From IMG/VR virus record IMGVR_UViG_3300021960_000060, positions 1 through 64,000 of that record: a stretch of 64,000 bases of DNA; one strand, 5' to 3'. Both the position numbers and the translations under genes were made by a program. This DNA is from a virus. This document shows positions 2,369 to 51,246 of the stretch, piece after piece (position 1 is the stretch's first letter; each line of letters starts with the position of its first letter). The notes beneath the pieces are model-generated. The model saw only the letters and a program-made list of their open reading frames with translations, made no database searches and was not told where the DNA came from.

Positions 2369-2783
2369 CTTTAGATTGCTGTTTAATGAGTTTTGCTAAA
2401 TCGGCAGTGGACCCTACAAACAAAGCATTAGTTACATTTGTTGGACCTTTGCTTTGAGATTCTTCTTCTACACTTTTTAACTTCTTTTGCAGATCCATTA
2501 ATTTATCTGTTGCATCTGCAACATTTTTAATTAGTTGTCCAGCAACTTCATATGCTCTAGGCATCTCACTTTCTTGAGCAAGTTCAAGAATTCCATTAAT
2601 TGCTTCTTGGCCTTTTTCAATTATAGAATATAAATTACCTCTCGTATAATCATAATCTTTTTTAACATCATCAATATCTGATCTCATTTTTTCAATTTTT
2701 TGTTCTGAGGTTTCTATTTCAGGATTAATAATTTCTCCAGAAGTATTAAAGGTGTCATTGAGACTGTCAAAATTTTTTTTCAT
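2355..2783 (-). CDS. 16: Terminase small subunit gp16
   Basis: A 142-residue, helical, acidic protein matching the T4-type small terminase in size (T4 gp16 is about 164 residues), predicted coiled-coil character and gene order directly after gp15. Residues 25-55 (EQKIEKMRSDIDDVKKDYDY) and 85-110 form two long helices, as in oligomeric gp16 rings that regulate packaging by gp17. A late promoter AATAAATA lies immediately upstream at 2789-2796. The stop is overlapped by the next small gene. Assignment rests on synteny and helical pattern. Confidence 0.8.
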   Translation of the reverse strand: MKKNFDSLNDTFNTSGEIINPEIETSEQKIEKMRSDIDDVKKDYDYTRGNLYSIIEKGQEAINGILELAQESEMPRAYEVAGQLIKNVADATDKLMDLQKKLKSVEEESQSKGPTNVTNALFVGSTADLAKLIKQQSKDEES

Positions 2784-2788
2784 ATTAA

Positions 2789-2796
2789 TATTTATT
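2789..2796 (-). promoter_or_regulatory. Late promoter AATAAATA for gp16
   Basis: The minus strand reads TAATAAATATTAATATG, an AATAAATA box six bases before the gp16 start codon, overlapping the gp15 stop. It fits the T4/cyanophage late box recognised by the gp55 sigma factor. The short distance to ATG weakens it. Confidence 0.5.
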
Positions 2797-3829
2797 AGAA
2801 AGTATCTCCACTAAATCCAAAATCATCACCTTCGGGAATAATGGCACTGTCTTCACCGATTGTTCCTATGCTAGTTGTAACATCAGTGTAATCGATTCCT
2901 TTAATTTCTGTTCCTTTTGGATGTGCAATAGCAGTTGTATTATCTTGAGCACGTTTAACAGAAATTCTATTGCCAGAAATTGATTTTACATACATCTCTT
3001 CACCATTAACATCAATATATTTTTTGGATATAATTTTAGTTCCATCTCCAACATTAAATGTAGTTGTAGTAGAATCTAATTCTTGATCTATTAAAGTTAC
3101 TATATCTCCTGTGTAGTCTTTAATTGCTCTTGGAGTCGCTGAATATGATACTCCTCTTGATCTGATAGAAGTATCTGTACCAGCAAGATAGTTGACTGTG
3201 GATTTTTTGATAATATCTTTGCTTGCAGAAGAAACTGGTCCAAACAGATATGTTTTGGCAGTAAACCTCAAGGTGTAAAGAAGAACTCTTCTTGTACTAA
3301 AATCTCCTTCATAATCGTCTTGCATAGTAATATTTTCAAGTATTACTGGTACATCACGTTTTTCTCTAATTTCATCAACTAATTGTACCGATAAACTAAA
3401 AGCAGGTTGAAAATATGGTAAAATTTGTTCCACAATTTGTAAAGCATCATCATTCAATTTTGACATAATGCTCAGTTCAAACTGCATGTTATATGGAACT
3501 GGCATATATGTTTTTTTGAATTCTGACCCATCATTTGGATCCTTTGCGACAATTTGCTGAGTTGTAGAAACTTTTCTCGATGGATCGTATGTTAGACCTG
3601 TAAATTCAAATGACATCCTAGGTAAGGTCATTGCAGTTGACTTATTCAAATCTGGAGATTGCTCCAATCTGGCCAAAAACTTTTGGGTAGGACCATATGC
3701 AAGAGGAACTTTCATTATATTTGTAACAGTGCCAGCAGAATCTGTATGCTTAATACTAATTCCATTAAACAAAGTTCCAAACGAAATAACAGTTCTTCTC
3801 AGAATCTCGTTATAAAAATATTCAAACAT
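2795..3829 (-). CDS. 15: Tail sheath stabiliser/terminator gp15
   Basis: A 344-residue protein (T4 gp15 is 272). The opening MFEYFYNEILRRTVISFGTL followed by V...YGP.QKFLARLEQ and ..T..LPRMSFEFTGLTYD.. is the characteristic gp15 N-terminus. In T4, gp15 forms the hexameric ring that caps the contracted or extended tail and joins it to the neck (gp13/gp14). The extra C-terminal 80 residues after about 260 (FNVGDGTKIISKKYIDVNGE) resemble the short beta modules seen in other structural proteins of this phage. It lies directly after gp14 and before gp16, the canonical order. Confidence 0.92.
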   Translation of the reverse strand: MFEYFYNEILRRTVISFGTLFNGISIKHTDSAGTVTNIMKVPLAYGPTQKFLARLEQSPDLNKSTAMTLPRMSFEFTGLTYDPSRKVSTTQQIVAKDPNDGSEFKKTYMPVPYNMQFELSIMSKLNDDALQIVEQILPYFQPAFSLSVQLVDEIREKRDVPVILENITMQDDYEGDFSTRRVLLYTLRFTAKTYLFGPVSSASKDIIKKSTVNYLAGTDTSIRSRGVSYSATPRAIKDYTGDIVTLIDQELDSTTTTFNVGDGTKIISKKYIDVNGEEMYVKSISGNRISVKRAQDNTTAIAHPKGTEIKGIDYTDVTTSIGTIGEDSAIIPEGDDFGFSGDTF

Positions 3830-3871
3830 GTTATTACTTACCTTATGTTATTATTTAAATATAATAATTTC

Positions 3872-3879
3872 TATTTATG
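3872..3879 (-). promoter_or_regulatory. Late promoter CATAAATA for gp15
   Basis: The minus strand reads CATAAATA about 45 bases before the gp15 ATG, overlapping the gp14 stop codon region. It fits the NATAAATA late box, with an AT-rich leader downstream. Confidence 0.65.
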
Positions 3880-6445
3880 GAATTCCAAAAGGATTCTGTT
3901 CTGAAAAATCTAAGATTGAATCTGCCTCAGTTTCTATATCAGTATTGTCTGCAAATCCATCATCATTAATATTTTCGTTAATAGATCTTAATTGAAAACT
4001 TGCACTTGACGCTGTACCGACAAGAACTTCTCCATTAGAAAAATAACCAGATATATTTGATACTTCAAGTTGATTTGTTGTAATATCCCATTTTATTACT
4101 CTTGCAGTTGTTCCAGTAATACTTCCAGTAACAATTTCGTTAAATTCAAAAGATCCTGATCCAGAATTTGATGCTGCATCAGAAATTGTTACTTCTGGCA
4201 AAATTACATAATTTGAACCAGTATCTGTAATTTGAATTCCAGTTATTGTACCTGCTGCACTCACTAAAGCAACACCAGTAGCAGTATTGATACCAGCAAT
4301 CAATTCAACATAGTTCTTCTCAGAAGGATTATTAGATATCGTGACTGTAGGTACTGACAAATAACCACCTCCACCAAATGTTACTGCAATACCTGTCACA
4401 ATTCCACATTTATCAATACCAAATTCAAATGAAGTTGTTGCTATTGAAACATTTGTGGAAACTTCTGACATATAAACTGTTCCATATCCAACAGATGTAA
4501 CATACGTACTTGTTGATATAAAATTGGATGCTGGAAATAATGTATGACTCGTTTCATGATGATATTGAAGTCTAACTCTATCACCAACTATAATGCCAGT
4601 AGTAGTTATACCAGAAATGTGATCTGATCCAATTCCAATAGTTCCTGTGGTTTTTACTGAGTCAAATCTCACTGTAGCTATGCCGAGAGCTCTAAATTGT
4701 TCATTTGTTCCTGTAGGGGCAGCAATTGTAACGCTAGGAGCAGTTTGATATCCAAATCCACTAGTTGCTACAGAAACTGATGTAACTGTACCTGCAATAG
4801 AAATAGTTGCCGTTCCTGTTGCTCTATATTGTGCAGTAGCACCAGAGAATGAAATTAAAGGCGCGGCAGTATATCCAAGGCCTATAGTTGCACCTGTTCC
4901 AACACACCAAGGATCTGTTGTTGAATTAAATCCAACTGCAGTAACAATTCCAGTTATAGGATGAATGGTGGCAATACCAATAGCAATCTCTAAAGGAGCA
5001 TCTTGTCCACTAGTAGTAGATATCGCAACTGTTGGTGCTGTCGTATATGCCCTACCAGTAGTTGTAAATGCAACAGAAGAAGGATCAATAGAAGTACCAG
5101 CAATTCCTATTGTTGCAGAAGCACCAAATGATCCAGTAGGAGCAGAGAAGGTAACTGTAGGAACACTTGTATAGAACTTACTGCCAGAAGTAATGCCAAC
5201 ACTTGATACTGTTCCTCCAGTTTGAGATATATCTGATAGAGTTGCAGTTGCTTCTGCAGCGTTTCCAGTACCCTCTGGTAAACTAAATGTTACTGAAGGT
5301 ACTGACTTATAGAATACCCCTCCTGTAGTCCCTCCTGGGAAGAATAGAGAGGATGAACCAATACTAATAGTCGCAGCAGTAACACTAACCCCACCACCGA
5401 CAATTGGAAGATCTAAAGTTGCAGTTGCAGCAGCACCAACATGTTTTGGTGACGAGAAAGTTACAGTTGGATTTGATGTAGAATATCCAGATCCACCAAA
5501 AGTGATTGTTACAATTCCAACTTGACCACTACTAATAACTGAAGTTGCAGCTGCACCACTTCCGCTATTTGAACTAAAACTTATAGATGGTGCTTGAGTA
5601 TATCCAGAACCAGCATTAGTCATTTGTACCGTTTGTACTGACTTTAATGAAGGATTTACATTTTTATTGCATGCTTGAATACCCCCAATCATAATAGCAC
5701 TTGCTATTCCAGTAACTCCACCTGCAGGTGCTGATGAAATTGCTACTCTTGGAGGTGTATTATATCCACCACCTCTATTAGTAACAGCTATTAATCTTAT
5801 GGAACCATTTGTTATACCTCCGACAACAGCGGTTGCTGTAGAAGCGATTCCTACCATAGTGAGAGTTTGAGTTCTTCCTAAAAACAAATCTCCATCAACT
5901 CCGTCAATTGCTTGCAGTTCATCATCAATTTCAGAAACTCCAGTATCTATAATTTCATTTTCATATCTGAAGAGTTCACATCTCAACTCATAGGTATAAT
6001 TTTCTTGCAATTGATAGAAAGGCTTGTCATGTATTACTTGTTTAATTTCAAACAATCTATCGCCAAGAGGAAAATATAATATGTCTCCCTCTTTTGGTCT
6101 AGATGAAAGTTTTACATTATCCTCTTCTACTAATAATGGTGCAATATATTCATTATACCTTTCTTTTGATATTACTAGGGTAATCTCATTTGTATTTTGA
6201 ATGCCAAACTTTGATAGCAATACTGAATTGTCATCATACCCTTCATAGTTTTGAACATATGCTTCAATTGGATATGAAGAATCAAATTTAGATTCAATAA
6301 CTTCCTTTATGACTGTTTTTTCAGTCACATACTTTCTTGGAAGATAGTAGATCTCAATACCATATATTTTTAACTGCTCGTTAATTAAGTCTTGAACTAA
6401 ACTTTGTTCTGACTTAGATCCTTGTTGGAAAAATGGATTTAACAT
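3875..6445 (-). CDS. 14: Neck protein gp14 with large glycine-repeat insertion
   Basis: An 856-residue protein against 256 in T4. Residues 1-175 are recognisably gp14 (MLNPFFQQGSKSEQSLVQDL, IYGIEIYYLPRKYV, GD..YFPL..RLFEI..V....FYQL...YTYEL..ELFRYE). After residue about 190 there is an insertion of some 600 residues with about ten copies of a repeat of the form GGGYxSxPxVxIS followed by a small-residue strand, then a short gp14-like acidic C-terminus. gp14 with gp13 forms the collar that joins head and tail. The insertion probably decorates the neck; related repeats occur in at least four other proteins here. Confidence 0.88.
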   Translation of the reverse strand: MLNPFFQQGSKSEQSLVQDLINEQLKIYGIEIYYLPRKYVTEKTVIKEVIESKFDSSYPIEAYVQNYEGYDDNSVLLSKFGIQNTNEITLVISKERYNEYIAPLLVEEDNVKLSSRPKEGDILYFPLGDRLFEIKQVIHDKPFYQLQENYTYELRCELFRYENEIIDTGVSEIDDELQAIDGVDGDLFLGRTQTLTMVGIASTATAVVGGITNGSIRLIAVTNRGGGYNTPPRVAISSAPAGGVTGIASAIMIGGIQACNKNVNPSLKSVQTVQMTNAGSGYTQAPSISFSSNSGSGAAATSVISSGQVGIVTITFGGSGYSTSNPTVTFSSPKHVGAAATATLDLPIVGGGVSVTAATISIGSSSLFFPGGTTGGVFYKSVPSVTFSLPEGTGNAAEATATLSDISQTGGTVSSVGITSGSKFYTSVPTVTFSAPTGSFGASATIGIAGTSIDPSSVAFTTTGRAYTTAPTVAISTTSGQDAPLEIAIGIATIHPITGIVTAVGFNSTTDPWCVGTGATIGLGYTAAPLISFSGATAQYRATGTATISIAGTVTSVSVATSGFGYQTAPSVTIAAPTGTNEQFRALGIATVRFDSVKTTGTIGIGSDHISGITTTGIIVGDRVRLQYHHETSHTLFPASNFISTSTYVTSVGYGTVYMSEVSTNVSIATTSFEFGIDKCGIVTGIAVTFGGGGYLSVPTVTISNNPSEKNYVELIAGINTATGVALVSAAGTITGIQITDTGSNYVILPEVTISDAASNSGSGSFEFNEIVTGSITGTTARVIKWDITTNQLEVSNISGYFSNGEVLVGTASSASFQLRSINENINDDGFADNTDIETEADSILDFSEQNPFGIP

Positions 6446-7726: not shown

Positions 7727-10700
7727 TTATGCTAAAGCAATTACGCGAAGATCTTTTGCTCTTGGAACAAATGCTTGACTAGTAGAAGTCATTACCAATT
7801 TAATTCTATAGGATCTAAAAGCAGGAAGCTCGTCAGCAGTGAATGAATATTCCTTAAAGTTTATTTCTTGAGATTCAAATCCCAATTCATTAGAAGGAAC
7901 TATAAACCTATCAGGTTTTCCATCACTATCTTCAAGTTTGATAATCTGATTTTTATAATCAAGATTATCATATCCTGGGAATGGGAAGAATAATGGGTCA
8001 AAGTTTGGATTATCTCCAATTGAATAGAATGCACGTATATCTGAGTAATTATTCACATGTGCATTTAAAAGAATCTTAATGGAAGTTGCTGGAGATTCTA
8101 AACCTATTTCTTTAGAAATATATTGGAATGCTGAAGGATCATCTGTAGAACTAGATACTCTAGGATCTGTAGAATAATCTGTTATAACTTTATTGACTCT
8201 ATTTGAAGTCAAAATAACAGCTACTCTTTGAGAGTCAATTACTGGAGATAAAAGTGGATTTGATGTTGCCAACGTCAATCTCATATTCATGGATTTGTTG
8301 CCAGTAAGCAATCCAAGTTTTTCATCTTCATTAACCTTTGAACATACAATTCTAGGTTCATCAAGATAATTTGCAGAATTCACTGTTATTGGATCAAATC
8401 CAGCGTCAATGAATGGAATTTCTTTTCCATCAATACTCTTACCAGTCACACTTCTAATACTTGCACCAACAGTTGTTCCAGGAACAGTCAAGTTTTGAAC
8501 AATAGGAGTTATAATTTCAAAAGGAATGTTTTGTGTTGCTTTTGCATTATATCCACCAGAAGTTTTGGTCAAACTTTGATATAATTTTGGATAACCTGCA
8601 ACAGTTCTATCGGTTCCATCTAGAGACATGTCCAATTTAATATTGTACGAATCAAAAGTAATTGGATTACTTACAGATACATTAGAAAGATTGTGTACTT
8701 TATTAATTCTCTTAAGAGAAATGCCATTTAGTTCATACTTATAAACTGGAGTTCCAACTGAATATGTAAGTGGATTGGATCCTCTTACAATATTACCCTG
8801 AAGATCATTACCATTCACTGAAGTATATTCAATGATTTCATTTCCAATTTTTATGTAACCTGGATTTGTTGTCCCAACTCCAACTCCTTCAAATGTTGAG
8901 AATTGACTTGCATCGCTAATTTGAATTGATCCTGTAGAATCAGAACTATAGTTTATGCTTAGTTTTGATGGTCTTATGTCAGATGCTACGTCAGAGATCT
9001 TTACATAATCTTCTCCAGAATACATTCCATGATTCTTATGGTTTACTTTAATATGCAAACCATCAGAAACTGTAGTTATAGAATCTACAGAAACGTTTCC
9101 ACCAAGTTCCCAGTTTAAGTTTGTAGTAATACCTGCACTAGAAACATATCTCATAGTATTTGCAACACCTGTTAAGAAATCACCTTGAACGTTATCTACA
9201 ATCAATTGATTAGTATTGGCAATACTGACAATTGAAAATCTTGCATTTCTTCCAACTTCAAGAGAACCAATATTTGGAATCGATAAGACATCACCTGCAA
9301 CATATCCATTACCTGTAGCAGAAATAGTTGCCGCAATAGCAACACCATCTTTAATTGTAACGTCTGCAGTTGCTCCTGAACCTTTTCCACTAACAGTGCT
9401 TAAAACAACACCTCCAAAGATAAATTGACCAGATCCTGGAGTATATCCAATACCTGCATTTATAATATTAAGATTGCCAGTGGCTATTCCTGCATTTCCA
9501 ACATAATTACCTGTTGCATCAGAACCCCATTGCATTATAGTATTTCCAAATTCTAATGTAGTATCTCCAATAGTAGAAGCAAGACTGATTCTTACTTTTT
9601 TTGAATTCATTTCAATAGTATTTGGAAGAAGATTTGCAATCTGATTATTGCCGGAAGTCAATTCCGGATTATAGAAGTCAACAGTTCCAGTATCTAAGAA
9701 ATCTGCTCTGTAAAGATCAAATTTCAAATCTTCCCATTGACTTGGTTCCCAAGTAGAAGCATTTTGAGACTTGAATAGTGATCCAAGAGTAGGTTGATTG
9801 GAAACAAATGATTGTGTAAGAATGTCATTTTCACCAACTCTTGAAATGAATACGCTATAATCTGCAGACTGAGATAACATAACAATAGCATACTCTGTTT
9901 CTCCTTTCAGATAAACCGGAGCATCAAATTCAAAGAAAGTTATAGCAGATCCATCATCGGATGTTGTAATTTGATTTGGAAACAAGAATACTTCAGAAAG
10001 TGGTAAAACTTTTTCAGAAGGAGTTCCTAATTCCATAGTTCTTAACTGAAGAACTACTGGAGTACTTCCAGCATCGGTAGTATTAAAATATACACCACAT
10101 TTGGTAACAAAGATTCCTTCCAATTCTTCAACAAAGAATGATTGAGCTAAAGGATCCCATCTTCTTGGTGGTGCTGGTGGTGGTCTCCTCGGTGGTGGTG
10201 GCGGTGGTGGCGGTGGGAATGCCCATATTCTAGTGTTAACAATCGTAGAAGAGACTACTTGAGTATCTGCAACTCTTCTAATATCTCTAGATTGATTTTG
10301 TTGGGTCTGAGTGATTCTAGCATTTCTAACAGAAACAATGTTTTCTTGAACTGTTTCTAATGTTCCAGATGCTTCAAATGATTCACTTGCTAAGGTAGTT
10401 GCATCATCAACGTCACCATCTTCATCGTTAATTAGTGTAAATGATTTTGATCCTGTCTCAAATCTTGGATTTACTGTAATATTCGGATTTGGTACAAAGA
10501 AACTTCCAGCAACAGTAGCAGTTATATCAGATACAAATCTGACTGCAGAAACTGTTGCCTGAGCACCACTAGTTCCTCCAACAAGTACCATTCCTTGTTG
10601 AATAAATCCACTAAATGTTCCTTCAGCAATATTTGAAAGAGAATTTGTATCAACGTTTAAAATTGTTGAAGTTGAAGAATATGTTGAAGTGAGAGGTGCA

Positions 10701-36786: not shown

Positions 36787-36817
36787 TTTGAGTTTGTTTG
36801 GTCTCTATACTATGGAT

Positions 36818-36843
36818 ACAGTTTAGAGGTGAGTAATATTATT
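36818..36843 (-). repeat. Repeated element TTACTCACCTCTAAACTGT, copy 3
   Basis: Minus strand TATTACTCACCTCTAAACTG, then TATCCATAGTATAGAG. Located between the stop at 36854 and the ATG at 36786. Confidence 0.82.
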
Positions 36844-37922: not shown

Positions 37923-37950
37923 GAAGAGAAGTGATACTTACAATACTATG

Positions 37951-37974
37951 ACAGTTTAGAGGTGAGTAATATTA
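37951..37974 (-). repeat. Repeated element TTACTCACCTCTAAACTGT, copy 5
   Basis: Minus strand ATATTACTCACCTCTAAACT then GTCATAGTATTG. Between the stop at 37987 and the ATG at 37922. Confidence 0.8.
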
Positions 37975-39897: not shown

Positions 39898-39906
39898 ACC
39901 ATTAAG

Positions 39907-39930
39907 ACAGTTTAGAGGTGAGTAACAATA
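39907..39930 (-). repeat. Repeated element TTACTCACCTCTAAACTGT, copy 6
   Basis: Minus strand TTGTTACTCACCTCTAAACT then GTCTTAATGGTATG. It begins directly after the stop at 39931 and ends nine bases before the ATG at 39897. Confidence 0.8.
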
Positions 39931-40170: not shown

Positions 40171-41417
40171 CGACGGATCTCACTGATTGCTGGCATACCC
40201 TGATTAAACACAACATCAACAACTGCCTGAACTTTCTTGGCAGTACTGATACCAACTCTATCATAAGTTGGGATGCAAACTAAACCAAATGTCTTCTCAC
40301 TTCCACCCAAACGAATCACACGACCAATCGACTGACTGATACCAATGTAATCCATATTACGCATGAAGATAACAGCCTCAAGTCCATTGACGTTGATACC
40401 CTCAGACAGAATGCTATGGTGAAGGACAACAAATTTCTTGGTCTTGTCCTTTCCCCAAGTGTTCAAAGTGTCAAAGAATACGTCACGATTGACTTTCTTA
40501 CCATCAATGATTGCACCTGTCTTCGATGTGATCGTCATCCAAGAATAACCACGTTCAGCAAGTTGCAAGCAGAAATCTGAATGAGTAAGAAGATTGATGA
40601 TTTGCTTTGTTGTACGAGCACAGATCAAAACTTTTTTAAGATTACTAGATCCATCAATCAAACCATCAATTACATCTACACTTTTACAATTGTCAAGAGT
40701 TTCAATCAAGTTGTCACAATCATCAGCAAACATTACCTTGCGACCTTTAACCATAGGCAATTGCTTGACTACAACTTTAGGAGGGAGAATGTAACCCTGT
40801 TTAACCAACTCAGGAGCAGGAACATTACATAGAACCTGTCCATAAACATTTGTCCAGTTCATTCCTGGTTTGTTAATAGCAAGCGAATGTTTGGGGGTTG
40901 CAGTAAAGAAGTAACAACGCTCTGAGACATCGCTAAAATGCTCTGTAGCAGGGAAGAAGTTACGTTGGACGCTATTATGTGCCTCATCGAAGTATATGTT
41001 GTTCACCTCAATATCTGACTCCATTACACGATGGAGTGAATGATATGTAGTAAAGATGATAACATTCTCACCTGCTGTACGTGCAACATTAGCAAACACA
41101 TGAATGTTATCTGCTTTTGTTGTAGAATAGTGGTCTGTTTCACCACTATGAACGTGCATGATGTGAGTATTGGTTGTATCAATCAACTCAAGAAATTCAC
41201 TGCACAGTTGTTCAGCTAGTAAAATACGTGGAGCAACAACAACTGTCGTCATTCCGTTGGTGATGTGCTTACAATTCTCAGCAACATCCTGAATCATACA
41301 GATAGTTTTGCCACCACCTGTAGGTACAATGATTTGACCCTTATCATAGGTGAGCATACTGTTAAGAATGCGTTTCTGATGCGGACGAAGAGTCAGAGTC
41401 ATTCGTGTTTCATTCAT
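40167..41417 (-). CDS. SF2 DNA/RNA helicase
   Basis: A 416-residue superfamily 2 helicase from the ATG at 41417. Motifs: Q-like TLTLRPHQKRILN, Walker A PTGGGKT (32-38), TTYHSL (Ia/Ib region), DEAH (144-147), FTATP (171-175), and in the C-terminal RecA domain VLICARTTKQI, EGINVNGLEAVI (motif V) and QSIGRVIRLG (motif VI). It is like UvsW and type III restriction helicases in layout but shorter; UvsW itself usually sits elsewhere. A promoter nested in the upstream terminator puts transcription start near the ATG; MTLTLRP at 41402 is an alternative start. Confidence 0.88.
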   Translation of the reverse strand: MNETRMTLTLRPHQKRILNSMLTYDKGQIIVPTGGGKTICMIQDVAENCKHITNGMTTVVVAPRILLAEQLCSEFLELIDTTNTHIMHVHSGETDHYSTTKADNIHVFANVARTAGENVIIFTTYHSLHRVMESDIEVNNIYFDEAHNSVQRNFFPATEHFSDVSERCYFFTATPKHSLAINKPGMNWTNVYGQVLCNVPAPELVKQGYILPPKVVVKQLPMVKGRKVMFADDCDNLIETLDNCKSVDVIDGLIDGSSNLKKVLICARTTKQIINLLTHSDFCLQLAERGYSWMTITSKTGAIIDGKKVNRDVFFDTLNTWGKDKTKKFVVLHHSILSEGINVNGLEAVIFMRNMDYIGISQSIGRVIRLGGSEKTFGLVCIPTYDRVGISTAKKVQAVVDVVFNQGMPAISEIRR

Positions 41418-45333: not shown

Positions 45334-45361
45334 GCAGTTGATGCGTCGTTACACTATAAAA

Positions 45362-45387
45362 ACACTTTAAAGGTGAGTAACATTATT
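45362..45387 (-). repeat. Repeated element TTACTCACCTTTAAAGTGT, copy 7
   Basis: Minus strand ATGTTACTCACCTTTAAAGT then GTTTTTATAGTG. The stop codon of the Mom-like gene lies inside the element (ACT CAC CTT TAA). Confidence 0.78.
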
Positions 45388-46017
45388 ATCTGGATTTTTC
45401 CACTTCTCTTCTTTCCATTTAACATTCAACTTCTTGTCAAATGTCATCAAGAACCTATGCTTTTGACTTCTCTTTCTGTATTCTCCTTTCAAACCTTTAC
45501 CACCACCTCTTGATTTCTTAGTATAAGTTCCATCATCATTTAATATCCAAAAATCAGCAACATTTGCAGATGTCATACCATAGTATTTGAAATTAGATGC
45601 GGCATAGATTACACCTTTGTGAAACTTTCCATCAGCATAAGAAAGAATGGCCCTAACATCAACGTCTTTACGAAATTGTTTGATAGATCTTGATAAAAAC
45701 CATGAGGTAATATTATACTCTTCTGCTTGCACATCTGGATGTATGCATAACCTAGACAATTCAAATAATCCATCCTGTTGATCTCTTTGTAGACCAAATG
45801 CAGATACAGCAATCTCAGGAACTGGAATTCCTGTGTATACAATAGCCCCAACACATGTTCCAGTAGGTCTTAAAATACAATCAGGATCACCCTTGAACAA
45901 TGCATAGTTATGACCTGATCTAAATGTCTTGGAATGATCTTTCAGATAATGATATGTAAGGAGAAGATGTTCTACTTCTTTTCTTTCTACCTTTTCAATA
46001 TAATAATCATTTTTCAT
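45367..46017 (-). CDS. Mom-like DNA adenine modification protein (GNAT fold)
   Basis: A 216-residue protein resembling phage Mu Mom, which converts adenine in DNA to a carbamoylmethyl-type derivative that blocks restriction. Visible family features: GAIVYTGIPVP (58-67, cofactor-side strand), FELSRLCIHPD (85-95), SWFLSRSIKQ, VRAILSYADG (121-130), HKGVIYAASNFKYYGMTS (133-150), and a basic end with RKRSQKHRFLM. The L.RL...., SYAD and H.G.IY.A..F.Y.G motifs are the core of the Mom family. It overlaps the upstream methyltransferase-like gene by 11 bases, third in a three-gene operon. Substrate and exact chemistry are inferred from the family. Confidence 0.78.
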   Translation of the reverse strand: MKNDYYIEKVERKEVEHLLLTYHYLKDHSKTFRSGHNYALFKGDPDCILRPTGTCVGAIVYTGIPVPEIAVSAFGLQRDQQDGLFELSRLCIHPDVQAEEYNITSWFLSRSIKQFRKDVDVRAILSYADGKFHKGVIYAASNFKYYGMTSANVADFWILNDDGTYTKKSRGGGKGLKGEYRKRSQKHRFLMTFDKKLNVKWKEEKWKNPDNNVTHL

Positions 46018-46873
46018 TGCAAAACTCTACGATCTTTTTGTTGAATACTTTTTTCTTAAAATGTTTATGAAATGTCTGATAGTTATTATAACAGACACTT
46101 GACAAAAAAGAAAGAAACTTTTTACTTTTCAAGGTATTTACAAAAGTGTCAAAGTCAATATCTTCAGGTACATAGAAACAATCAACTGCACGATTTTTAT
46201 CTGCAATTTCATCAAAAGTGTACATATTTAAATTATTATTAATTTTACGATTATCTGAACCTGTAGAAATACAAATAACACGATTTGTATCCCATTCAAC
46301 TCTACTTTGATATTGTTCTCTACATGATTTCTTTCCCCCACCTGTTAGACTAATATATTGAAAAGAATCTTTATCTGAAACTAATTGAAAATATGAATAA
46401 TATTCCATATTGTTCTGAGTGAGAATAGGAACATTTTTTGAATTAATTTCTACAACATCATTCCCATAAAAAATTAATGAATTTGATTCAGTTTTCGTTC
46501 TTTGAAACTCTACTATCGCAAAATTATCATATATCCAAGCATTTGCAATTTTTACATTCTTAATCAAAGAACTATGAGAACAAATCTTAAGAGGAATTTT
46601 AGCAATAATTTTTCCACCAATTTTTACATGCTGAATTGCACTGATTAACCAACTATATTCATGCTTTGCTTTAGCAAAAGGAAATTTATTACATTCTACA
46701 ATATCAATCATTGCAGTATCATACTCATTTAGATTTGAGTTATGTGGTTCAAAGTTAGTATCAAATACAAATTCACCAAAACTAGCAATCATAGCAATAT
46801 TGGGTGACAAAATAATAGTATCACCCTCAAATTTAAAATACTTATTAAATTGTTCGGTCGTAAGATAATTCAT
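46007..46873 (-). CDS. Methyltransferase-like protein lacking the NPP(Y/F) motif
   Basis: A 288-residue protein starting at the ATG that overlaps the helicase stop (ATGA). The order of elements resembles N6-adenine DNA methyltransferases of the Eco57I/TaqI type: YDTAMIDIVECNKFPFAKAK aligns with the D(I/V)I..NPPF loop but reads VECNKFPF, then YSWLISAIQHVKIGGKIIAK IPL corresponds to the K.GG......P strand-turn-strand. The C-terminal part (FYVPEDIDFDTFVNTLKSKK FLSFLSS) looks like a target-recognition end. If the fold is right, the catalytic motif is altered, so it may bind DNA or assist Mom rather than methylate. Fold assignment is tentative. Confidence 0.5.
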   Translation of the reverse strand: MNYLTTEQFNKYFKFEGDTIILSPNIAMIASFGEFVFDTNFEPHNSNLNEYDTAMIDIVECNKFPFAKAKHEYSWLISAIQHVKIGGKIIAKIPLKICSHSSLIKNVKIANAWIYDNFAIVEFQRTKTESNSLIFYGNDVVEINSKNVPILTQNNMEYYSYFQLVSDKDSFQYISLTGGGKKSCREQYQSRVEWDTNRVICISTGSDNRKINNNLNMYTFDEIADKNRAVDCFYVPEDIDFDTFVNTLKSKKFLSFLSSVCYNNYQTFHKHFKKKVFNKKIVEFCNEK

Positions 46874-49128
46874 TTCACACACTCAATATACATGGAGAAA
46901 AGAGATTCATCGATGTACTTTTCCTCAATAAGCATCAAAAACTGTTCAGGTGTTGCTCCAATAGATTTTGCAATAAAATGATTTGTCTGAATCAATTCAA
47001 CAAACATTTTAAAGTCAATATCACGATTCTTTCTGATTTCTTCAACACAATATGCAGTGCGATCAAGAATATTTGTAAGTTTATTACGTCGCTCTGTCAA
47101 AATAGATCTTTCTTCAGAAGTCATTGAACGTTTTGTATTTCTAGGATCAATAAAAGTTTGACCTTTTTTAAATGAAGAATTTGTAGTGATTTTCTCAATT
47201 TCATCACTATTGGAAATGATATCTAAACACCCATCATACATTAAACGATCAGAATTTATAATAACACGTTGAGAGTTATTTGATGAAAATATTTCTTTTG
47301 AATACTCATCAACGTCCAGTGCAACGTTATATCCAGTGTCACTCATCTGAAAAATTGGTAAAGTCTTCATAACTCTACGAAGTCCAACCATAAAATCAAC
47401 ATTATCATGCTCTGAAACTTGTTTCGCAGCATCCATAATCATAGGAGCAATCTTATCATCACGATTACCATCAATTGATAGGGAAATGATATGGCCAATT
47501 TTTTCCATATTGCCAGTAGTGAGTGATCTACTAATTTTTTGCACTGTTGCCCCCATATCGCCATTATCATATGCAAGAATAACTACATTAATGTCAGGAA
47601 TACTAAATGATCTTTGACACATTTGAGATGCAATAATCCACACTTCTTTGTTGTTTTTCTTTGCAATACGAATAGCATCTTTTACATATTGCTCTGCATC
47701 TTTTCCCTTAACAACATCTCCATTAATACAGTGAACATCAAAGTAATCGCCAATAATAGATTTTGCAATCTTCTCTAGGTTCTTTAGTTGTTTATTAGTC
47801 ATGCTAACAAATTGAATAACAGAACGAGTAGAGTCGTCTTCTAAACAATTGTCAAGTGCAAAATCATTTGCATTTACGTCATCACTTTCACCAATAAAGG
47901 ATTTGTATATTCCTGACCAAAATGCTTTGCTCTTTTGCACATCTTGAGATGATTTGGAAAATGAAGGATTTAGATCCTGATTGTCATCATTAAGAGAATG
48001 TGCAAATTTACTCCAATCATAACGATAAAACTTAACCTGTGTAAGATTTTTCTCAAACTCAGTTGCACGTTTATAATTAATTGAATTCTCAAGTTTTACA
48101 TTAGTACCTGCTTTCATTAACATATCAAGATAAGTAACCTTGAAGAAAGCATCTACGTCATTATGACTACTTTTTGCTCTCTGACTATTAGTCCCAGTAG
48201 TTAGAATGATAGGAGCATTTTTTCCAATTTGATTTACGAATGGCACACAACTATCAGTATGAGCACCATAATCTGCTTCATCAATTACGGTTATTTTATC
48301 AACATAGTTCTCAATAACTTCAGCATTACTATTTCTGACAGTTTCACCTTCCTTATCACCACAAAGAGAAGCAACAACTAAAATTTTCTTTTTCTCAGAA
48401 AGATTTTTCATAAAATCTTCTTCAAATTGATCTGATGAAAGATCAAGAATTGAAAAATTAGAAAACTGCTTATATAGATAAACCTCTTTCTTGAACGAAG
48501 ATAGAGCAGTCAAGTAATATGACCCAACAACCATAACTTGTCGATCAAGATAATGAAATAGACTGAGATATAATATGGTTTTACCAAAACGTGCTGCAAG
48601 TTCTGCCATTATCTTCGTTTTTCCAAATTTAATCAAAGAAATAAGTTTATCCAAAGATTCCATTTGCCAGATAGTTAATCTGAGATCTCTCTTTTCAATA
48701 TCATTTTGTAAATAATCAAACCAAAGTTCTGCTGGATTAGTATCCTCAAATATTGCCCATTCTTTTGCACTACGAGTGGGATCAAGAACATGTGCAAGAA
48801 AACATTTCCCATCTTCATGCATTTGTCGAAGAATTTTTTGATCTTCAGAATCAATTAGTGCAAGTTTTGATGGCTGATATCCAACAATTAGATACTGTTC
48901 TCTCTCAGATGCTTCTCTCTGCTGAGAAATGCGATCCAATACATTAACACTTGATTGTCCACATTTAAATTCTTTAGATTTATATGCAGAACATTTAGTA
49001 TACTGATAGAATCCTATAGGATCACTCTCAATCAGACCTTTAATTTCTTCATTAATGTAAAAAATACCCTTTCTAGAAGAAGAAATGGCATTTTGAAAGT
49101 ATTGATCCCAGGATAGGTTTTTGAACAT
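46870..49128 (-). CDS. SF2 helicase/translocase of the Mom-like operon
   Basis: A 752-residue protein from the ATG at 49128 (a TTG precedes it). It has an N-terminal 145-residue region of no known fold, a Q-like LTIWQMESLDKLI (151-163), a Walker A variant AARFGKT (178-184), VIDEAD (281-286), TTGT (310-313), VIQFVS (motif IV), ASQMCQRSFSIPDINVV (motif V) and QKISRSLTTG (motif VI), so both RecA domains are present. The layout recalls the motor subunits of type I/III restriction systems, but I see no nuclease motif (PD-ExK). It is first in an operon with a methyltransferase-like and a Mom-like gene, all with overlapping ends; repeated element copy 8 lies just upstream. Confidence 0.82.
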   Translation of the reverse strand: MFKNLSWDQYFQNAISSSRKGIFYINEEIKGLIESDPIGFYQYTKCSAYKSKEFKCGQSSVNVLDRISQQREASEREQYLIVGYQPSKLALIDSEDQKILRQMHEDGKCFLAHVLDPTRSAKEWAIFEDTNPAELWFDYLQNDIEKRDLRLTIWQMESLDKLISLIKFGKTKIMAELAARFGKTILYLSLFHYLDRQVMVVGSYYLTALSSFKKEVYLYKQFSNFSILDLSSDQFEEDFMKNLSEKKKILVVASLCGDKEGETVRNSNAEVIENYVDKITVIDEADYGAHTDSCVPFVNQIGKNAPIILTTGTNSQRAKSSHNDVDAFFKVTYLDMLMKAGTNVKLENSINYKRATEFEKNLTQVKFYRYDWSKFAHSLNDDNQDLNPSFSKSSQDVQKSKAFWSGIYKSFIGESDDVNANDFALDNCLEDDSTRSVIQFVSMTNKQLKNLEKIAKSIIGDYFDVHCINGDVVKGKDAEQYVKDAIRIAKKNNKEVWIIASQMCQRSFSIPDINVVILAYDNGDMGATVQKISRSLTTGNMEKIGHIISLSIDGNRDDKIAPMIMDAAKQVSEHDNVDFMVGLRRVMKTLPIFQMSDTGYNVALDVDEYSKEIFSSNNSQRVIINSDRLMYDGCLDIISNSDEIEKITTNSSFKKGQTFIDPRNTKRSMTSEERSILTERRNKLTNILDRTAYCVEEIRKNRDIDFKMFVELIQTNHFIAKSIGATPEQFLMLIEEKYIDESLFSMYIECVK

Positions 49129-49153
49129 CAAAAATTAATCTCTCAATAATAAA

Positions 49154-49178
49154 ACAGTTTAAAGGTGAGGTATATTTT
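49154..49178 (-). repeat. Repeated element CCTCACCTTTAAACTGT, copy 8
   Basis: Minus strand ATATACCTCACCTTTAAACT then GTTTTATTATTGAG; the TTA at the left end is changed to TAC. It begins at the stop of the 142-residue gene and lies 26 bases before the helicase ATG. Confidence 0.7.
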
Positions 49179-50226: not shown

Positions 50227-50517
50227 CTAAAGTTCCTCTTCTTTCTCAGTCTCTACCACACAATCACTGGTTGGATAAGATACACACAGCAATGCAAATC
50301 CTGCTTCAATCTGATCATCATCCAAGAAAGATTGATCGCTTTGATCTACAGTACCACTCACAATCTTACCAGCACAGGAAGAACATGCACCTGCACGACA
50401 AGAATATGGAAGATCAATACCAGCTTCTTCTGCGGCATCTAAGATGTATGTATCATCAGGACAATCAATAATAGTTTCAATGCCGTCAGATGATTTAAGT
50501 TTGACAGAGTAATTCAT
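50227..50517 (-). CDS. petF: Plant-type [2Fe-2S] ferredoxin
   Basis: A 96-residue ferredoxin with ligands C40, C45, C48 and C78 in [19 protein letters not shown] and [13 protein letters not shown], the exact spacing of photosynthetic ferredoxins. Residues at the acidic surface (DDD near 67, EKEEEL end) are kept. In cyanobacteria this protein receives electrons from photosystem I and supplies NADP reductase, bilin reductases and ribonucleotide metabolism; cyanophage copies probably keep redox supply going during infection. An early TTGACA-17-TATAAT promoter precedes it by 25 bp, so expression is likely early. Confidence 0.95.
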
Positions 50518-50749: not shown

Positions 50750-50863
50750 TTATCTATCCTTAATATCTTTTTTCTCATGAAGTTTTTTAATTGCTTCAAT
50801 AACTTCAGGAGTTTCTTCCCATTCCCAACTATTTCCTTTAGTATCTAAAACTTTTTTCTTCAT
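50750..50863 (-). CDS. 37-residue small protein
   Basis: MKKKVLDTKGNSWEWEETPE and VIEAIKKLHEKKDIKDR. The ATG overlaps the stop of the SET-domain gene as ATGA. Trp/Glu-rich strand then a basic helix. Likely translated by coupling to the SET gene. Function unknown. Confidence 0.55.
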   Translation of the reverse strand: MKKKVLDTKGNSWEWEETPEVIEAIKKLHEKKDIKDR

Positions 50864-51246
50864 TGATCTTCCTCGAATGAAATACTTGGATTATAACAAG
50901 AGAATAATTCATCACCACATTTAATATCTCTTGTTGCATAATAATTTTGAGTCATATTAACACCATCAACATACCATTCAACATTAGGTTCTGGAGAATG
51001 ATTAAACAGTGATCCAACACCCAATCCAATAAAACAATTATCTTTTAAGTTTGCAAGGTATCTTCCTATTCTTTCAGAACTTGGATTAACATCCTCTCCA
51101 TTTACAATAATAATAGGACACTCTTCAATGAGATCATACTTTGCAATATCATCATTAGCAAAAACTCCCCATCCTTGAATAGGAGATCTTTTAACCTGTA
51201 CTTTTGAATTGCGAAATAATTCAGTTTTATATACTGTTGGATTCAT
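50860..51246 (-). CDS. SET-domain protein (putative lysine methyltransferase)
   Basis: A 128-residue minimal SET domain. GWGVFA (25-30) is the N-terminal AdoMet-binding GxG element, SLFNHSPEPNVEW (79-91) holds the NHS..PN core and GDELFSCY (111-118) the E-x-x-x-x-Y catalytic tyrosine region. The post-SET cysteine cluster is absent, as in other short bacterial and viral SET proteins. Family members methylate lysines on proteins (histones, ribosomal proteins, viral or host factors) using S-adenosylmethionine. In a phage the likely substrate is a host or phage protein. A promoter-like TTGACA-17-TATCTT pair lies about 80 bp upstream. Confidence 0.88.
   Translation of the reverse strand: MNPTVYKTELFRNSKVQVKRSPIQGWGVFANDDIAKYDLIEECPIIIVNGEDVNPSSERIGRYLANLKDNCFIGLGVGSLFNHSPEPNVEWYVDGVNMTQNYYATRDIKCGDELFSCYNPSISFEEDQ

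Follow-up and report, generated by a model that had tools for sequence, protein, structure and literature searches.

The window analysed here, a 64,000-nucleotide stretch covering positions 1 to 64,000 of the 68-kb IMG/VR virus record IMGVR_UViG_3300021960_000060, comes from a T4-like marine cyanophage and carries on its minus strand, at 45367-49128, a trio of ORFs (open reading frames) overlapping in series. We read this trio as the phage's own ATP-dependent restriction-modification system, in which a Mom-family protein would set the self-mark and a dead methyltransferase would provide recognition, and we put the probability of this reading at roughly 0.6. The closest annotated relatives of the source phage are the Synechococcus phages Bellamy and S-SM2, at ~73% identity in the one late-gene stretch compared. 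Genes 1 and 2 overlap by 4 bases (ATGA) and genes 2 and 3 by 11 bases, the same overlaps as in the original prediction, which had been made for this DNA without database searches:

46870-49128, minus strand: gene 1 (ORF, 752 amino acids), a GIY-YIG(MUG113-like)-SF2 motor protein, proposed nuclease-translocase (restriction) subunit.
46007-46873, minus strand: gene 2 (288 amino acids), a degenerate TaqI/Eco57I-type gamma methyltransferase, proposed DNA-recognition subunit.
45367-46017, minus strand: gene 3 (216 amino acids), a Mom-family adenine modification protein, proposed self-mark enzyme.

Eight divergent loci contain the gene 1-gene 2 pair, each time with a DNA-modification gene as the next gene downstream, an arrangement that exceeds chance. 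A search for the triplet in other genomes had been suggested with the original prediction, and it succeeded: Mom comes next after the pair in seven of the eight (the window, L006, L007, L011, L012, L013 and L029, where the Mom ORF is 9191-9841), the third slot being occupied by either of two divergent Mom types. The remaining locus, L028, has in this slot a D12/Dam adenine methyltransferase (PF02086, E 2e-20), five bases past gene 2. The front of the operon is exchanged as well: L015-L017 retain gene 2 (27% identity) and Mom, the position of gene 1 is filled by an Mrr_cat_2-like ORF (a weak match, E 0.03) together with a different SF2 helicase (ResIII, E 5e-20), and a homing endonuclease gene is inserted ahead of mom. 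Finally, L018, whose two flanks match those of the window at 95-96% identity, keeps Mom and precisely lacks genes 1 and 2:

46018-49176, minus strand: cassette of genes 1 and 2 with the upstream element, from the stop of the upstream gene to the Mom start, missing in L018.

At the L018 junction, GGTTAA followed immediately by GTG, Mom begins directly behind that stop codon, and L010 has the same type of junction. Extra solo Mom genes occur at other sites in G001 and G003. The pair is thus never found without a modification gene, while the modification gene is often found without the pair, which is the pattern of a restriction-modification system. Mom on its own in L018, between flanks 96% identical to those of the window, further indicates that Mom is independent of genes 1 and 2.

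Gene 3 belongs by sequence to the Mom family, and an adenine-modifying activity is predicted for it. It matches Pfam PF25680 (E 4.5e-19, 69.4 bits against a curated cut-off of 27.1) and phrog_1384 (E 1e-27), and all conserved residues of the family are present (HY, E-L-x-R-L-C, SYAD, H-G-IY-A-NF). The two Mom types of the related loci, only ~25% identical to each other, share SYAD and H-x-G-x-IY-x-A-x-NF without variation, which bears out the Mom motif set originally noticed in this product:

45577-45642, minus strand: Mom motif block SYAD...HKGVIYAASNFKYYG, invariant in both Mom types.

Phage Mu Mom is of the same protein family and has the same motif set; in Mu, mom is not known to need a motor or methyltransferase linked to it, and it is regulated by Com/C. 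GIY-YIG/NUMOD-type homing endonuclease genes recur beside or near mom (L015 5199-6011, L036 4450-5073, L035 3396-4088, L012 428-1054).

Gene 2 is, judging from its modelled fold, a dead TaqI-type methyltransferase. Its AlphaFold2 model has a predicted local distance difference test score (pLDDT) of 90, and M.TaqI is the top PDB fold match (E 3e-6, probability 1.00, template modelling score 0.57 by query length), with CamA, BrxX/PglX and Type I HsdM as further top matches. It thus has the fold of the M.TaqI class of gamma N6-adenine methyltransferases without their S-adenosylmethionine (SAM)-binding motif I and NPPY/F; motif I and NPPY are missing in nine of nine members of the gene 2 family. 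The Eco57I/TaqI-type assignment with an altered NPPF/Y, made from the translation at the outset, agrees with both the fold and the position of the motif:

46676-46699, minus strand: VECNKFPF in place of the NPPY/F catalytic motif (position derived from the 288-amino-acid translation).

A separate motif-I protein able to complete gene 2, in the style of phage S-CAM7, was searched for in the window and not found. Pfam and NCBIfam gave no family-model match for gene 2, and PADLOC likewise gave nothing useful; for gene 1 these three collections yielded no more than weak SF2 matches. Decay of genes 1 and 2 was considered and rejected: where synonymous divergence (dS) was usable, the ratio of nonsynonymous to synonymous divergence (dN/dS) of both genes is ~0.1-0.3, far below 1, a sign of purifying selection. 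Hence the degenerate gene 2 protein is maintained by selection, and its role, taking the simplest option, is probably DNA recognition without methylation.

For gene 1, a Foldseek search against the PDB returned SF2 motors, Helicase_C/ResIII profile matches were weak, and its viral fold neighbours include a 1138-amino-acid 'Restriction modification methylase Eco57I'. In front of the motor core lies a region in which G39-F-Y41, K55-x-G57, R66, D96 and E123-W124 are invariant across eight gene 1 relatives, residues that led us to suspect a T5orf172/MUG113 (GIY-YIG) domain:

48718-49035, minus strand: N-terminal nuclease-type domain of gene 1 (residues 32-137), from hhalign against MUG113 domains.
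47449-48675 (approximate), minus strand: SF2 core of gene 1 (AARFGKT, DEADYGAHT, TTGT, QKxSRxLT), from the alignment of eight relatives and Foldseek.

Compared by hhalign with a profile of 23 MUG113 domains gathered from Bacteroidota genomes, residues 32-137 scored 31.7 (P 4.6e-5, 94 columns), whereas 200 column-shuffled profiles reached at most 19.5 (0/200 higher), the reversed profile reached 13.6, and no stretch elsewhere in gene 1 or in gene 2 scored above 13. The predicted order of secondary structure in the domain is beta-beta-alpha-beta-alpha. Gene 1 therefore probably has an N-terminal domain of the GIY-YIG nuclease type, which may cut DNA. The original description, which saw a complete SF2 motor and no nuclease motif, holds for the motor and probably has to be revised for the nuclease. 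PDB sequence searches using the profiles found nothing relevant, and no relative of gene 1 was found in the genome-contig collection. A helicase relative in phage ACG-2014f, proposed from a fold match, was discarded, as it is absent from the RefSeq isolate of that phage.

How might the three products work together? Gene 2, having lost SAM binding and catalysis but retained its fold and target-recognition part, would bind a specific DNA site. Gene 1 would be recruited to this site, translocate along or remodel the DNA, and then cut. Mom would modify phage adenines and thereby stop gene 2 from recognising or licensing the site. Any DNA without the mark, be it the host chromosome or a superinfecting phage, would be destroyed and Mom-marked phage DNA spared. 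The same mark would also shield phage DNA from host restriction. In this scheme we infer the cutting, the target recognition by gene 2, its blocking by the Mom mark and the biological target. With somewhat less assurance than for the system as a whole, we lean towards a split of methyltransferase roles: the dead enzyme would recognise DNA, an exchangeable protein (Mom, or Dam in a relative) would set the self-mark, and unmarked host or rival DNA would be destroyed.

Parts of this arrangement are found in more distant genomes. In S-CAM7, whose motor is 30% identical, and in a 484-kb uncultured phage, a motor of the gene 1 type stands beside or is fused to NPPY-bearing Eco57I methyltransferases. 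The S-CAM7 motor gene (L037 6602-8909) is split into two overlapping ORFs beside an Eco57I methyltransferase gene that looks intact; the motor might be frameshifted or have two subunits. Bacterial T5orf172/MUG113-SF2 proteins, to which gene 1 is weakly similar over its full length (score 36.7, best of 60 shuffles 31.3), are encoded in operons that overlap active-looking Eco57I methyltransferase genes (NPPY; E 1e-36 or better). These bacterial operons resemble the phage trio in the N-terminal GIY-YIG-family domain on an SF2 motor and in the adjacent, overlapping gene for a gamma-type methyltransferase. However, the bacterial methyltransferase still has its SAM and NPPY motifs and is presumably the source of the self-mark, whereas that of the phage trio is dead (VECNKFPF) and the self-mark role would have been taken by Mom or Dam. 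A further possible Mom-linked recognition module is found on a Paludibacteraceae contig (L063 3600-7384), where an HsdM-like methyltransferase, three HsdS-like recognition proteins, mom and further methyltransferases stand in a row.

Among described systems, the Type ISP enzymes LlaGI and LlaBIII (PMC4666363) likewise combine a nuclease, an SF2 motor and a gamma methyltransferase fold with a recognition part. They do so in a single chain, with an Mrr nuclease and an active methyltransferase; by contrast, the phage trio has separate ORFs, the window lacks Mrr (a weak Mrr_cat_2-like ORF appears only in variant L015), gene 2 lacks motifs I and IV in 9/9 relatives, and the mark is that of Mom. A restriction function for Mom-linked nucleases has been proposed before: Iyer et al. 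2021 (PMC7824862) described Mom domains fused to nucleases of the restriction endonuclease (REase) fold in jumbo phages and predicted a restriction role for them, which means that the principle was already known. There as here, Mom gives an adenine mark, and host or rival DNA that lacks it is the predicted target of a linked nuclease; a nuclease linked to Mom is found here too, as a MUG113-type domain encoded in an overlapping operon. The differences are that a stand-alone 216-amino-acid Mom and a GIY-YIG-type domain on an SF2 motor replace the REase-fold fusion, and that the separate dead methyltransferase and the three-gene form are features of the phage trio. Synechococcus phage DSL-LC03 and L062, a phage-like contig in a Formosa metagenome-assembled genome, each have a PD-(D/E)XK-like nuclease gene that overlaps mom, the two nucleases being related to each other (E 2e-5). 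The initial remark that known Mom proteins act without such partners was therefore incomplete, given these overlaps and the predicted restriction fusions (PMC7824862). New features are the dependence on a motor in a three-gene layout, a dead methyltransferase that would serve separately for recognition, and the swap between Mom and Dam; in the literature searched, which covers few subscription papers, we found this arrangement described nowhere.

Other explanations of the trio have to be weighed against restriction. The original prediction took genes 1 and 2 to be accessories of Mom, with a motor moving on the DNA and a dead methyltransferase presenting adenines for processive or site-chosen modification. 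The tight operon with its 11-base overlap between gene 2 and mom would suit such a role, and the ability to flip adenines could survive in a dead methyltransferase fold. But Mom stands alone in L010/L018 and in many phages, and its place in the operon can be taken by a Dam methyltransferase, which needs no helper; with Mom independent and replaceable by Dam, an accessory-dependent Mom fits poorly. Adding the nuclease-type domain of gene 1 and the exchange of the motor, we consider this role the weaker reading, and an unlikely one. The original prediction is thus partly confirmed: the identities of the SF2 motor, the altered TaqI-type methyltransferase and Mom hold, and the processive or sequence-guided role for Mom does not fare as well.

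It is rather unlikely that genes 1 and 2 exclude DNA without cutting it, as in a bacteriophage exclusion (BREX/PglX-like) system that keeps DNA lacking the Mom mark from being replicated or transcribed, with an N-terminal domain that only binds. The gene 2 fold does match PglX/BrxX too, and the GIY-YIG-type domain has no certain catalytic acid; yet the exchange for an Mrr-like nuclease in L015-L017 and the nuclease-Mom pairs of other phages both suggest cutting. Quite improbable, in our view, is that genes 1 and 2 travel as a mobile cassette, serve a purpose unrelated to mom, such as recombination or Holliday-junction processing, and came to lie upstream of it through a hot spot of repeat elements. 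A cassette that is precisely present or absent, a repeated flanking element, the homing endonuclease genes that settle beside mom as well, and the recombination role proposed for some T5orf172 nucleases (PMC7824862) would all be compatible with this. However, the genes overlap, and a modification gene follows the pair in 8/8 loci from different phages, with differing Mom types and Dam.

Several observations nevertheless count against the restriction-modification reading. All eight loci come from metagenomes, most of them as fragments, and they do not count as independent cases. The L028 phage has a Mom elsewhere, so the methyltransferase in its third slot need not substitute for Mom. The likeness of gene 2 to Eco57I enzymes is seen in the fold, with no detectable sequence homology: direct profile comparison with the enzymes of S-CAM7, the 484-kb phage and bacteria gave no match, which leaves fold and gene order as the basis of the link. 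The nuclease domain of gene 1 is remote, and curated Pfam models miss it apart from a sub-threshold PF13455 match (E 0.0083) in the window genome only, without a match in the relatives; PF10544 did not match. The identity of its catalytic acid (D96?) is not certain, and the structure model of gene 1 is poor (pLDDT 58).

As originally noticed, the same intergenic element lies on both sides of the trio. It is 19 bases long (CTCACCTYTAAASTGT), with exact copies at both ends of the trio and three degenerate copies, all on the same strand; the chance expectation is 0.07 matches, against five copies on one strand. The element could be a mark of module boundaries or a promoter-type signal.

49151-49169, minus strand: intergenic element CTCACCTTTAAACTGTTTT, exact copy upstream of gene 1.
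45359-45377, minus strand: intergenic element CTCACCTTTAAAGTGTTTT, exact copy at the 3' end of mom.
36815-36833, 37948-37966, 39904-39922, 45359-45377 and 49151-49169, minus strand: the five copies of the dispersed element.

Around the trio, a second SF2 helicase (~420 amino acids, UvsW-like by eye) lies nearby in the window (40305-40661, minus strand) and in L001; similar helicases stand immediately upstream of the trio in L006, L007, L012 and L028, the gene in L012 (1541-2580) being broken into pieces of 281 and 65 amino acids beside an intact trio. L028 also has a 569-amino-acid ORF without a family match upstream of helicase and trio (2519-4228). Upstream of the trio in L007 is a 170-amino-acid ORF that by eye resembled PD-(D/E)XK proteins; no library backs that, and we rejected it. 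The window further encodes, close to a plant-type ferredoxin (50227-50517), a 128-amino-acid SET-domain-like protein (by eye; 50860-51246, minus strand), which is conserved in L010 and L018.

Finally, we would like to consider what a restriction role would mean for Mom, which is mainly regarded as a shield against host restriction. If the reading is true, Mom is also one half of a phage weapon, the other half being an ATP-dependent nuclease, and its mark is interchangeable with methylation. The trio would then offer a simple test of how a restriction-modification system can recruit a new chemical mark after losing the activity of its own methyltransferase. It would also be a candidate for the way in which cyanophages degrade host DNA or exclude competitors.

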